A DNA stretch of 64,000 bases from contig JACQCT010000027.1 of NCBI GenBank assembly GCA_016201435.1, positions 1 through 64,000 on the forward strand, given 5' to 3'. Of the stretch, positions 1,374 to 50,494 are shown one piece after another. The position numbers and the translations under genes were made by a program. A model generated the notes under the pieces. The model saw only the letters and a list, made by a program, of their open reading frames with translations. It ran no database searches and had not been told where the DNA came from. This stretch comes from Nitrososphaerota archaeon. Lineage in GTDB: Archaea > Thermoproteota > Nitrososphaeria > Nitrososphaerales > Nitrosopumilaceae. Numbering within the stretch: the stretch's first letter is position 1; the number at the start of each line of letters is the position of its first letter.

Positions 1374-2495
1374 GATTTTCCGTTTAAAGATACAATCTAT
1401 CTAAACAATGCATCAACCTCGCTGATGCCGATTTCGAGCATAAAGGCGATGACTGATTTTGTTGTAAGCTATAATGAGATGGGACCGGATTCAAAAAAAG
1501 CAGATAGTTATGTTACAGAAAGGCTATTTCTTGCAAGAAAAGCAATTTCATATTTAATAAAATGTAAACCAGATGAAGTAATCTTTACTCAAAGTACCAC
1601 AGATGGAGTTAACATGGTTGCCAGTGGTCTAAAATTAAAACAGACATCAAATATTATAATTCGTGATTCAAATCATGAACATCCAGCAAATCATTATCCA
1701 TGGGTACGTTTGGCTGAAAAGCTAACAGTAAAAAATTTGAAAGTCAATAATGTTGGTTATTTTGAACTTGAGGAGTTAAGAAAAATAATTGATGGCAACA
1801 CTGGTCTTGTTGTACTAAGTCATGCTCTCTTTAATACAGGTGCAATTTTACCTGTAGAACAAATTGGAAACATTCTAGCTGAAAAAAATATTCCATATTT
1901 TATAGACGTAGCACAAACAGTTGGTTGTCTTGAAGATGTTGATGTAAATAAAATCAAGTGCAATTTTATGTCTTTTAATGGTTCAAAGTGGCTTTGTGGT
2001 CCTATGGGAACTGGAATATTTTTTTGTAAAAAGGAATCAAATGAAATGCTAGAACCACTTCAGGTGGGTGGAGAGTCAGCCATATTTCATGAAGGTAAGA
2101 TTACCTACAAGGAGATGCCAGCAAAATTCCAGGCTGGATTTCGTAATTGGTTCGGTATAGCTGGTCTTGAGGCATCTATTGTCTATTTGTTAAGATTGGG
2201 TATTGAGAATGTTAGAAAAAAGAACATCAAACTTGCCAACATAATGCGTGAAGAGCTATCAAGAATTCCAGGCGTTATTTTGTATGGACCTGAAGAATCG
2301 GAGAAAAGAACAAGTATAGTTTCTTTTTCACTTCTAAACCAAGATCCAAAGATTGTTGTAGAAAGACTTGAGAAACAAAATATGATTCTCGCAGTGCGTG
2401 AAATCTTTACTCAAAAAGTGATCAGGGCTTCAATGCATTTTTTTAATACAGAAGCTCAAATCCTGAAGGTCGTAGATGCAATCAAAAAAAGTTAG
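1347..2495 (+). CDS. Aminotransferase class V / cysteine desulfurase-like PLP enzyme
   Basis: A 382-residue fold-type I PLP enzyme of the SufS / isopenicillin-N-epimerase group. The NNASTSLMP N-terminus, FTQSTTDGVN cofactor loop, the YFIDVAQTVG strand with the cofactor aspartate and the Schiff-base lysine in NGSKWLCGPMGTG (about Lys214) are all clear. The conserved cysteine loop of true cysteine desulfurases is missing: the C-terminal part reads VREIFTQKVIRASMHFFN. A role in sulfur mobilisation is therefore not supported, and lyase, epimerase or transaminase chemistry is just as possible. It is divergent from the RecA-like gene. Confidence 0.82.
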   Translation: MNLDYDVSQDFPFKDTIYLNNASTSLMPISSIKAMTDFVVSYNEMGPDSKKADSYVTERLFLARKAISYLIKCKPDEVIFTQSTTDGVNMVASGLKLKQTSNIIIRDSNHEHPANHYPWVRLAEKLTVKNLKVNNVGYFELEELRKIIDGNTGLVVLSHALFNTGAILPVEQIGNILAEKNIPYFIDVAQTVGCLEDVDVNKIKCNFMSFNGSKWLCGPMGTGIFFCKKESNEMLEPLQVGGESAIFHEGKITYKEMPAKFQAGFRNWFGIAGLEASIVYLLRLGIENVRKKNIKLANIMREELSRIPGVILYGPEESEKRTSIVSFSLLNQDPKIVVERLEKQNMILAVREIFTQKVIRASMHFFNTEAQILKVVDAIKKS

Positions 2496-2496
2496 T

Positions 2497-2757
2497 TTAT
2501 TGTTCTTGTTCTTCTATAACCATCATTGTTAAGGTTGAATACACTTTGTCTATTTTTCTAATTTTGTTTGTTATTATATTTCGTAAAAGATCCATATTGT
2601 CTGCTGTTATTTTTACAATTATATCATATACACCGTATACTCCTTGGACTTCATATAGAACAGTTTTGCCCTCCTTATCCAGTATTTCTTTAATTTTCTG
2701 AATGATTTCTACGTCAGAGCCCAAATCAGAATTTAGTAAGATATAGGTTGTAGGCAT
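2497..2757 (-). CDS. Stand-alone Lrp/AsnC ligand-binding (RAM) domain protein
   Basis: About 86 residues from ATG 2757 (MPTTYILLNSDLG). The protein has the beta-alpha-beta-beta-alpha-beta RAM fold of Lrp/AsnC regulators with the typical VQGVYGVYDIIVKI ligand-site segment, but it has no DNA-binding HTH. Such proteins usually form small-molecule-binding oligomers or modulate full-length Lrp proteins. An earlier in-frame start at 2778 adds seven residues, but the TATA-like TTAAATATT at 2779-2787 would then sit right at the start codon, so 2757 is preferred. The gene is convergent with the PLP enzyme and leaves one base between the stops. Confidence 0.85.
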   Translation of the reverse strand: MPTTYILLNSDLGSDVEIIQKIKEILDKEGKTVLYEVQGVYGVYDIIVKITADNMDLLRNIITNKIRKIDKVYSTLTMMVIEEQEQ

Positions 2758-47267: not shown

Positions 47268-47762
47268 ATGGCGATAAACTTGATAGACAAACTTCGGGAA
47301 TTTTGGAATAGAAAACCAATTACTCGTAATGCTCTCATAATGATGGGCATTTTGTATTTGCCTGTTGCATTTCTGCATGAATTTGGACATTATTTGGTTG
47401 GTGTCCATCTTGGTTCTCTATGCGGAATGAAGATGGATTTTTTGGGGTTTCATGTTTATTGTTATCCTCTACCCTCAACTGATTCTTTGTATCTGCCATT
47501 AGGTGGAATTTTCGGAATGATTGGAAGTTTGTCTTTACTATCATTCAAAAGAATACGCAGTAATAGAGGTTGTTTGATTGGCACATCTACAATGGCATTC
47601 AACCATTTTCTACAATTTTTTGGTGAAACATATGAAACCAATCGGTATTTACATGATCTTACCTTTTCTATGTTACTTGGCATCCTTCTTAGTATTTTTC
47701 TCATCTCTTTTATCATAATCTATAATCCAAAGTTTCGCCACAGAACAAAAGACAAATCCTAA
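47268..47762 (+). CDS. Small membrane protein with HEFGH zinc-protease motif (M50-like)
   Basis: 164 residues. The HExxH motif is in LPVAFLHEFGHYLVG (about residues 31-45), inside or next to the first hydrophobic segment as in M50/site-2-type proteases. Further hydrophobic segments lie at about 80-95 and 130-152. The usual third ligand motif (N/D-x-x-P-x-x-x-x-D-G) is not seen, and a stretch NHFLQFFGETYE is in its place. It may be a reduced intramembrane protease or a non-catalytic relative. Confidence 0.6.
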   Translation: MAINLIDKLREFWNRKPITRNALIMMGILYLPVAFLHEFGHYLVGVHLGSLCGMKMDFLGFHVYCYPLPSTDSLYLPLGGIFGMIGSLSLLSFKRIRSNRGCLIGTSTMAFNHFLQFFGETYETNRYLHDLTFSMLLGILLSIFLISFIIIYNPKFRHRTKDKS

Positions 47763-47900: not shown

Positions 47901-49769
47901 TTACTTTAGTGTACTTCCAACCAAAATACCATTAGCCCAATAGTTTCCTGTTTGGCTATCTGGTAAAATATCATATGTAAAGTGATACTTGTATTGTACT
48001 AGTTCTATTGATTTTACTGTAGAACCATCATACGTTTCTCCAACTTTGAGGTCTGCAATTATTCTGTTGTCATAAGTTGGATGATTTGGTGATACAAACA
48101 ATTCTCTTCCATCAGCTAGTTGTAAGTCTATCACTTTATGAGTGTCACCTACAAACACATTGTTAATCTTGATGACATTGGATTTGATCATTGTTCCGTT
48201 TGAATCTGTAGACCATACAATCGTGCCATCTCTGATGTCCTTGACATTCACATTCCCGTTTGGTGTTTTTATCATAGAATCGGCCGATAGACAAATTGGA
48301 CATTCAATCAGTCCCTGAGATGGTATGGATAAAATGCTAAATGTGGCTGTGGTTTCATTGGTTGAAACAAGTGTGAATGTATGTCGAGTTGAAGTAAAAC
48401 AATCCTGCTGTGTATAAAATAATTTTCCAACTGGGATTGTTTCTGTTCTGGTCTTGTTGTCACACAAAGGATAGCAGCTATAATATTGAACTTCTACGGA
48501 GCTTGGCATTATTTGTTTAATCGAGTACTCGAAAATTTTTTGCCCTATTTTTAAGACCTGCGTGCTTGCCACAGGATTTGGGCCTGGCGCAGCAGAAGTG
48601 GGAAGTACTATTATTGTAAAGTTGATTGTATCAGTTAAAGTGCCTTGTACAGGTCCACTTTGTGTTACTTTTGCGGAACCGTGAAATGTTCCAGGTCTGG
48701 TACTGGAATATGTATGCTCCAGATACGTACCGGCATTTCCGATTGTACCGTCTCCAAAATCATAATCAACTGTCATCATATACATTGGAGGTTCCCCAAG
48801 CGGATTGCTGTCCATCATAAGAAAACCAACAGCGGTATCATTGCCTCGATTTGGTGAATTAAAGTTGGGAGTTGTTATATCTAATGTAGCAAAGGTCTGT
48901 CCTCTAATGGTTATCAAAGTTCTGTCGGTATGGACTGGACTTGGAGGAGGCAATGTAACCGTATTTAGTTGTGGCTGTGGTGGTATTGATGGGTTAAAAT
49001 TTTCTCCCCATCCACGTTCAACAAGCTTCTGTGCTGTTTGTGGTTTTACACAAGCTGGAGAATTGTCAGATAATTTCTTTATCAATATTAGACCATCACT
49101 ACATTTGACAAGATCAGCTGACAAACCTTGTTCAGTCTGTTTTTTTGGAGATTGAAATATTGCAACAGGAAATTCAGGTATAGGTGAAGTTACTATTGAC
49201 AGATCGCGCATGAATATGGAATGCTGTGAGAAATGGGTTGAGAAAAGTGGTGAGAAATATGGGATCAAAACAAGTATCTGAGCTCCACTTTGATTGACAA
49301 TTATTGCAAAGCTCGGTTTATCAGTACTTTTAGCATGTAAGATAGAATCGATATCTTGAACAGATTTCATATGCCAACCATCATAGATTATTCCGTCGTT
49401 CTTTAGCTCTTGTACATTTACGTTGGCGCTGCTTAGATTAATAAGCAAAACTTTTGGATCCGTCTCGACCGTTGTATCTACGCTTATGTTAATACCATCT
49501 TCTGGTATACTGCGCCAGGAAATGGAGACGTTGTCGTCTAGTGATTTTGTTTCTATGTTGGGACCCTTGAAATCTATCTGCGCGACAATTGCATGGTTAT
49601 CTATTGCTTTGTTAATGCTTGCCATGGATTCGATTGTACCATTCAAAACTGTATTTATTCCACTTGTCATTGTGTGTGAGGTAGCATTTTGTGCAAATGC
49701 TAATGGGATTATTGAAACTGAGGACAATAGAACTGAACCAAAAAATAATGCCTGCCAGGAAAGATGCAT
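47901..49769 (-). CDS. Secreted protein with PKD-like domain and C-terminal Hint domain
   Basis: 622 residues. Signal peptide to about 26 (ending AFAQ). Beta-rich extracellular part to about 250, a Pro-rich linker, a PKD-like region (MMTVDYDFGDGTIGNAGTYLEHTYS, about 330-385), then a Hint domain from Cys493 (CLSADSMIKTPNGNVNVKDI) to the C-terminus. Hint features are the leading Cys, LADGRELFVSPNHPTY with His563, and the closing YWANGILVGSTLK. There is no C-terminal HN-Cys/Ser extein junction, so N-terminal autocleavage at Cys493, as in Hedgehog or BIL-type domains, is more likely than splicing. Confidence 0.85.
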   Translation of the reverse strand: MHLSWQALFFGSVLLSSVSIIPLAFAQNATSHTMTSGINTVLNGTIESMASINKAIDNHAIVAQIDFKGPNIETKSLDDNVSISWRSIPEDGINISVDTTVETDPKVLLINLSSANVNVQELKNDGIIYDGWHMKSVQDIDSILHAKSTDKPSFAIIVNQSGAQILVLIPYFSPLFSTHFSQHSIFMRDLSIVTSPIPEFPVAIFQSPKKQTEQGLSADLVKCSDGLILIKKLSDNSPACVKPQTAQKLVERGWGENFNPSIPPQPQLNTVTLPPPSPVHTDRTLITIRGQTFATLDITTPNFNSPNRGNDTAVGFLMMDSNPLGEPPMYMMTVDYDFGDGTIGNAGTYLEHTYSSTRPGTFHGSAKVTQSGPVQGTLTDTINFTIIVLPTSAAPGPNPVASTQVLKIGQKIFEYSIKQIMPSSVEVQYYSCYPLCDNKTRTETIPVGKLFYTQQDCFTSTRHTFTLVSTNETTATFSILSIPSQGLIECPICLSADSMIKTPNGNVNVKDIRDGTIVWSTDSNGTMIKSNVIKINNVFVGDTHKVIDLQLADGRELFVSPNHPTYDNRIIADLKVGETYDGSTVKSIELVQYKYHFTYDILPDSQTGNYWANGILVGSTLK

Positions 49770-49962: not shown

Positions 49963-50494
49963 CTACTTTTTAGAAGAAATTACTAGTTTCAATAATTTCC
50001 ACTTGAGCATTTTCACTATTTGATCCGTATCAGTAATTCCTTCCAAATCTTGCAAGGTTATCACAATAATACGACATCCATCACGTAACACATCTGAAAT
50101 TTCTGCATAGGCGTCTTTTTCCCTTGATTCATCACCTGAGATTCCAGAACGTGCAACAACAATCCCCAAACTCAAGCCTTTATTCTTTAATTTTCTTGCA
50201 AACCAGTTCAATTCACTCCCCAGTTACACGTTTAGCCCAATTCTTGCATTCTACTGCAATAACTGGAGGTAGGAAATACAAACCATTACGTGCCTGATCA
50301 TTCCAAAAAATCAAATCAATTTCATGAATCTTGGATCTGTTACGTACGTTTCTTCCTTCAAGTGAGACACCAGGAATTTTTTCAAAGATATAACAAAATG
50401 CATCTTCAAGTTGTCTGCCTTTTTCAGTTGTACTTGATTTTAAATCAAAACAAGCAAAAAAACGTCTAATTTTAGCATTATCTACTCTAACCAT
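49963..50494 (-). pseudogene. Mrr-like PD-(D/E)xK nuclease, frameshifted
   Basis: The first frame (ATG 50494 to TGA 50213) carries GRQLEDAFCYIFEKI, HEIDLIFW and VECKNWAKRV, the Asp and Glu-x-Lys of a restriction-endonuclease-like core. The second frame continues SELNWFARKLKNKGLSLGIVVARSGISG to 49963. Removing one base at the GGGG run about 50214-50219 joins them into one protein of about 176 residues. The family acts on foreign or modified DNA. A strong AGGAGGTGAA at 50501-50510 precedes the start by six bases, so the gene was built for SD-led translation. Confidence 0.7.

Follow-up and report, generated by a model that had tools for sequence, protein, structure and literature searches.

Hint domains located at the C-terminus of exported proteins and unable to splice are of an already known kind, illustrated by Hedgehog and related domains, and few proven roles have been assigned to non-intein Hint domains in prokaryotes. 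With respect to their chemistry, Cys1 and the residues at positions B:7, B:10 and F:4 are those assigned to the first, N-terminal, step of splicing (PMC4031507), and the definition of the BIL domains of type A includes a C-terminal His-Asn (PMC4031507, PMC7765530). A bacterial group of C-terminal Hint proteins, left unnamed, was reported by Buerglin in 2008 from Myxococcus, Stigmatella, Reinekea, Photorhabdus, Serratia and Yersinia (PMC2362128).

A gene located in the window, i.e., the whole stretch of 64,000 nucleotides analysed from contig JACQCT010000027.1 of a Nitrososphaerota archaeon of the ammonia-oxidising type, encodes a predicted exported protein terminated by such a domain. This domain belongs to a scattered family, which invariably terminates exported proteins of many bacteria and a few archaea, and whose fold, conserved residues, architecture and distribution are established here. 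The family is apparently undescribed: in the literature searched, which left most subscription journals outside, so that a prior mention elsewhere is possible, neither the family nor its fixed x-S-[TS]-L end, its CPIC junction, its spread into archaea or its fusion to a PEFG-type domain was found. It is probable, in our opinion, that the C-terminal Hint domain of the exported protein processes itself through a thioester at Cys493, subsequently taken over by another nucleophile, in a reaction devoid of splicing in which Cys490 would be engaged in a disulfide bridge.

Compared to the Hog domain of Hedgehog (PDB code 1at0), the window protein shares the C-terminal location of the Hint domain in a secreted protein, the Cys1 acyl-shift machinery, the lack of a C-terminal Asn and the overall fold (Foldseek E 2.2e-5, TM-score of 0.67 on the target). 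It differs by the prokaryotic origin of its family, by a weak sequence match (E 0.28 for the family profile), and by the end of its chain at Lys622, 4 residues past the ANGILVG motif, whereas a sterol-recognition region follows the Hint domain in Hedgehog. The parallel with Hedgehog drawn in the initial annotation thus holds for the putative chemistry but not for the sterol-recognition region. The BIL domains (PDB codes 2lwy and 6y75) are, alongside the inteins, the best structural matches, and similarly occur in variable host proteins with no productive splicing expected; however, the present family lacks His-Asn, always occupies the end of the protein and possesses a fixed x-S-[TS]-L tail, so that the likeness to BILs, also proposed initially, is a loose one and does not extend to type A. 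The Class 1 inteins (gp41-1, PDB code 6qaz, and Cat, PDB code 6dsl) have Cys1, His B:10 and Asp F:4 in the same blocks A, B and F, but the window family has neither His-Asn nor C-extein and is not inserted in a conserved protein. Finally, the group of Buerglin resembles the present family by its C-terminal Hint domain, the signal peptides of some members and two conserved upstream cysteines, but the six members listed for it come exclusively from bacteria, the Chloroflexota not being among them; compared by description, the two groups may or may not be identical (PMC2362128).

Layout of the gene and its exported protein

The open reading frame, which starts with an ATG codon and encodes 622 amino acids, coincides exactly in its coordinates (47901-49769, here on the minus strand) with the one initially annotated, and its translation recovers the other landmarks that had been pointed out, namely the last 130 residues beginning at Cys493, the NHP block, which corresponds to S560-P-N-H563-P, and the ANGILVG motif (residues 612-618), after which only STLK precedes the stop codon (Table 1). 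The putative signal peptide likewise stands on the basis of the sequence, as a single hydrophobic stretch of approximately residues 6-26 ending in AFA-Q; residues 7-26 form the hydrophobicity peak of the whole protein, and the hydrophobicity scan of the 622 residues revealed no transmembrane-like stretch beyond it. The PKD-like domain is less secure, with a match to PKD_4 that exists but remains weak (about 19 bits for a cut-off of 27). Two domains had escaped the initial annotation, a WING-49 domain and an N-terminal domain of the PEFG-CTERM type.

Table 1. Location in the window of the gene and of the features of the encoded protein.
Feature	Position	Strand	Basis
Whole gene, 622-residue predicted exported protein with C-terminal Hint domain	47901..49769	-	ORF and translation
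Putative signal peptide, residues 1-26 (...LAFA-Q)	49692..49769	-	Sequence; hydrophobicity
N-terminal domain, residues ~43-204	49158..49643	-	Alignment at 35-43% identity; PEFG-CTERM matches in homologues
WING-49 domain, residues 208-255	49005..49148	-	NF058652, E=4.3e-20
Weak PKD-like domain, residues 331-383	48621..48779	-	PKD_4, E=0.0015, below cut-off
Pre-Hint beta domain, residues 404-489, contains Cys457	48303..48560	-	Alignments; model strands; cysteine co-occurrence
CPIC motif, residues 490-493 = Cys(-3), Pro(-2), Ile(-1), Cys1	48291..48302	-	Conservation, 73 members
Hint domain, residues 493-622	47904..48293	-	Profiles, AlphaFold model, Foldseek
Block B, S560-P-N-H563 (positions B:7 and B:10)	48081..48092	-	Conservation in 73 + 33 members
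Block F, T598-Y-D600 (Asp F:4)	47970..47978	-	Conservation in 73 + 33 members
S619-T620-L621, at the intein Asn and +1 positions	47907..47915	-	Conservation in 73 + 37 members

The N-terminal domain (residues 43-204) resembles the last domain of four PEFG-CTERM-like proteins (L193, L194, L195 and L009) from the same genome and its relatives, in all of which a PEF(P/G) motif is succeeded by a hydrophobic helix and then by a basic C-terminal tail. The TIGR04296 profile matches L009 above its cut-off of 25 (30.2 bits) and the three others below it (14.7-21.8 bits), and gives no match with the N-terminal part of the window protein. One of these proteins, encoded at positions 2085-2711 (-) of L193, shares its juxtamembrane domain with the stretch 49158-49643 (-) of the window. 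In the window protein, the domain ends in IPEFPVAIF, lacks both transmembrane helix and basic tail, and is directly followed by WING-49; with a PEF motif that is internal only, it is not a PEFG-CTERM protein. Judged from these alignments, it resembles the product of a fusion, by which the sorting tail would have been swapped for a tail bearing the Hint domain. In this respect, it shares with the archaeosortase/PEFG-CTERM system the N-terminal domain and the PEF motif, and both would process a C-terminus outside the cell, but the PEF, helix and basic end of that system need a sortase, whereas the Hint tail would be self-acting. The genome contains an exosortase/archaeosortase-like gene (PF09721, 26.1 bits for a cut-off of 25.7), located at positions 1435-2379 (-) of L196, which is likely its archaeosortase; the stretch FWPSAGVHS of the encoded protein is free of cysteine where the active-site cysteine of exosortases would presumably be expected.

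Fold and distribution of the family

Taken as a single sequence, the Hint domain is recognized by profiles with modest strength, although above chance: the isolated piece of 139 residues scores 25.1 bits with TIGR01445 (intein_Nterm, cut-off 24.5), and Pfam Hint_2 matches at E=2.6e-5, slightly under its cut-off. Searched against the PDB, the family profile retrieves first the consensus intein Cat (6dsl, 1.8e-7) and then a BIL (2lwy, 9e-5). The AlphaFold model of residues 404-622 has a mean pLDDT of 89, with values of mostly 94-98 in the Hint blocks, and its top Foldseek matches are all Hint folds (best E 7.7e-8), comprising BIL2 from T. thermophila (6y75), the Ssp DnaB and gp41-1 inteins, the BIL from C. 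thermocellum (2lwy) and Hedgehog (1at0). Taken together with Cys493, Ser560-x-x-His563 and Asp600, the residues typical of the HINT superfamily, the profiles and the confident model identify residues 493-622 as a Hint domain of this superfamily, and both the profile search and the structure prediction bear out the fold initially proposed. A polymorphic-toxin identity was dropped, the whole genome giving no match to PT-HINT (PF07591) at E <= 0.001, and no second Hint domain of the same kind occurs in the genome at E <= 1.

A scan for two short motifs, covering about 85,000 species genomes, yielded 80 loci, distributed among archaea in the Nitrososphaerota (mostly Nitrosotalea), the Micrarchaeota, a Woesearchaeon and a Bathyarchaeon, and among bacteria in many Chloroflexota and candidate-phyla bacteria, in addition to Melainabacteria, Myxococcota, Bacteroidota and others. 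Depending on the phylum, profile searches of genome samples found the domain in 5 of 300 genomes (window's phylum, the other weak matches being intein-like, partial and inside long frames), 29 of 251 (Chloroflexota) or 6 of 141 (Myxococcota). The sample of the phylum around a Woesebacteria genome contained it in the seed genome alone (1/287), and carriage in the candidate-phyla bacteria is therefore patchy. The layout, first described as uncommon in archaea, is indeed infrequent there, but it is the standard layout of a family that crosses phyla and has a stronger representation in the Chloroflexota. A tree built on 134 columns, few enough to leave the direction of any transfer undecided, brings the archaeal sequences together within a single supported set (21 rows, SH-aLRT 96), which also includes the candidate-phylum bacterium L070; the nearest relatives of the window protein are two thaumarchaeotal sequences, L090 and L094.

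The Hint domain is terminal in every family protein examined, behind varied cargo and N-termini that are signal-peptide-like or lipobox-like. In a Zambryskibacteria sequence (L046, 2513-4411, +), for example, a PQQ glucose/sorbosone dehydrogenase domain and a dockerin precede the same C-terminal Hint domain. A viral origin was discarded, no relative being found in viral_contigs and the viral fold matches consisting mostly of inteins and other Hint proteins; similarly, no plasmid-borne relative was detected by tblastn with a Chloroflexota Hint domain as query. The idea of a dedicated partner gene was also given up, none recurring beside the family loci, where the widest ORF cluster comprises 7 loci and starts response-regulator-like. 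The lack of a gene travelling with the Hint domain is as expected if the domain acts in cis.

Conserved residues and the lost splicing end

The main alignment comprises 73 members sharing 27-62% identity with the window protein. All of them carry Cys493, Ile500, His563, Thr598, Asp600, Gly608, Tyr610, Ala612 and Thr620, and 72 carry Ser560, the same count applying to Ser619. Since the search motifs spanned S-P-x-H-P and T-G-x-Y-W-A-x-G, conservation at these places is partly due to ascertainment; Cys493, Thr598, Asp600, Ser619 and Thr620 are located outside of them. A second set of 33 members, mostly from the Chloroflexota and a few of them repeating the first set, was collected by profile instead of exact motif, and displays Cys493 in 32/32 and Ser560, His563, Thr598, Asp600 and Ser619 in 33/33, with Thr (31) or Ser (2) at position 620. 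When additional Myxococcota are included (n=37), all sequences end in Ser, Thr (32) or Ser (5), and a hydrophobic residue, 1-17 residues before the stop. Besides the invariant Cys493, the CPIC motif retains Pro491 in 71, Cys490 in 63 and Ile492 in 59 of the 73 members. Block B of the family has Ser where inteins mostly have Thr, which counts against the proposed chemistry. Between close relatives, dN is far under dS (e.g., 0.06 and 0.44 between the window protein and L090).

At the other end, x-Ser619-[Thr/Ser]620 takes the place of His-Asn and the chain stops 0-20 residues further on; in the window protein, Gly618-Ser619 occupy the His-Asn positions. The lack of an HN-Cys junction reported initially therefore applies to the protein as well as to its family. 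The protein has neither the His-Asn followed by a C-extein with Cys, Ser or Thr that characterizes Class 1 inteins nor the C-terminal His-Asn of type A BILs; the blocks A, B and F without His-Asn agree with type B, a combination common to other non-splicing Hint domains and thus insufficient for an assignment. Splicing is excluded because His-Asn is replaced by x-Ser-[Thr/Ser] and the C-extein is absent. As the residues of the N-terminal chemistry are kept and His-Asn has uniformly become x-Ser, the N-terminal half of the reaction appears selected without the C-terminal half.

A decayed intein which lost its C-extein would account for a fold and a sequence closest to those of inteins and BILs, but this origin is highly improbable, owing to the x-S-[TS]-L end common to all full-length members examined from many phyla, the lack of any His-Asn member among them, and the purifying selection. 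The conservation could instead reflect a structural or binding role without cleavage, the Hint fold being dead and kept at the C-terminus for its stability, as a domain for surface or binding functions. No activity being known, and Thr598, Gly608, Tyr610 and Ala612 being conserved beyond the known catalytic set, such a role deserves mention, but we consider it unlikely: a dead domain should first lose Cys1, His B:10, Asp F:4 and CPIC, whereas the three residues are invariant down to 27% identity in several phyla and the context of the scissile bond is conserved as well. The expectation, expressed in the initial annotation, that Cys493 would serve for cleavage or esterification and not for splicing is thus supported by conservation and structure, and a cleavage or acyl transfer at this residue is to be expected.

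Cysteines of the junction and proposed fate of the extracellular part

No further cysteine follows Cys1 in 91 of 97 members. Cys(-3) never occurs in these 97 members without another upstream cysteine, typically located at -29 (SNGC), around -34 (GYxCEG) or around -113 (FFCDPD), the pre-Hint context varying from one to the other. In L085, L089, L097 and L186, a Tyr stands at -3 and the upstream partner is also missing, and L100 similarly lacks both. Among the members with Cys(-3), the cysteines other than Cys1 are even in number in 67 and odd in 16, a parity taken as supportive only, the lipobox filter being crude and some odd counts possibly holding an uncounted lipobox Cys. Because Cys(-3) and its partner occur and vanish together, this pattern, which had also escaped the initial annotation, suggests a disulfide bridge between them, leaving Cys493 as the sole free thiol; in the window protein, the simplest reading pairs Cys457 with Cys490, besides Cys432-Cys436 and Cys223-Cys240.

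A different pairing is known from the MoaA intein of Pyrococcus abyssi, in which a disulfide between Cys-3 and Cys1 was reported to act as a redox trap (PMC3922620). By virtue of this precedent, and of a CPIC spacing that is exactly that of Cys(-3) and Cys1, a Cys490-Cys493 disulfide that would keep the exported domain blocked until its reduction, thereby adding a level of control to the main reaction, is retained as a rival, albeit an improbable one, disfavoured by the co-occurrence of Cys(-3) with an upstream cysteine and by the mostly even counts, which point to the other pairing.

According to the preferred mechanism, in which the acyl shift, the cleavage and the disulfide are inferred, the protein would be exported and fold outside the cell, where Cys493, aided by Ser560, His563 and Asp600, would attack the Ile492-Cys493 bond and convert it to a thioester by an N-S acyl shift, the scissile bond being probably held in place by the Cys457-Cys490 disulfide. 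The thioester would then be resolved by a second nucleophile, either water, a surface nucleophile or Thr620, and residues 27-492 would be parted from the Hint domain with a free C-terminus or with their C-terminal carbonyl joined to the nucleophile. In inteins, an Ile at -1 generally slows N-terminal cleavage. The -1 residue of the family, which is mostly Ile, thus counts against a ready cleavage, and by analogy the prevailing Pro-Ile at -2/-1 may slow down plain hydrolysis.

The nucleophile could also belong to the tail itself, the acyl group passing from Cys493 to the hydroxyl of Thr620 to give a branched ester which, for want of a terminal Asn, would persist and tether the extracellular part. 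The Thr of position 620 in 73/73 members (Thr or Ser in the profile-found set), the near-invariant Ser619 and the +1 Cys/Ser/Thr that serves the same step in inteins are in line with such a transfer. Nevertheless, the hydroxyls of Ser619 and Thr620 could be purely structural and, to our knowledge, branched esters occur as intermediates and not as end products, so that it has, to our mind, a low probability.

Returning to the preferred processing at Cys493, attachment to a surface nucleophile is slightly favoured over plain release for the window protein, in view of the membrane-sorted family from which its N-terminal domain derives and of the sorting tail that it has itself lost. However, the Chloroflexota members often appear already anchored as lipoproteins, and this speaks against anchoring being the purpose of the family in general. 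A prokaryotic counterpart of Hedgehog, in which the Hint domain passes the chain bound to Cys1 on to a lipid or glycan of the surface, another acceptor or Thr620 and replaces, in the present protein, the PEFG-CTERM tail of the archaeosortase system, is conceivable but doubtful; if true, the Hint domain would be a sortase-free C-terminal sorting tail of exported prokaryotic proteins. In any case, a sharply defined family that has kept no more than the initial half of the chemistry of splicing offers a clean test of Hedgehog-like C-terminal processing in prokaryotes, which would bear on archaeal cell-surface biology and could yield a compact self-cleaving tag working outside the cell.

Some other elements surround or accompany the gene. 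WING-49, a domain of about 49 residues with two cysteines (KC...PACV), occurs at about 20 places in the genome, and also in relatives, within otherwise unlike proteins. No tRNA was found near the Hint gene, and neither of its neighbours matches Pfam above cut-off. The adjoining one (47268-47762, +) encodes a small membrane-like protein with a HEFGH motif as in M50 metalloproteases, and the other consists of two adjacent short ORFs of 93 and 82 residues in different frames (49963-50494, -), which read like a single nuclease-like protein split around 50212, possibly by a frameshift, or like overlapping genes.
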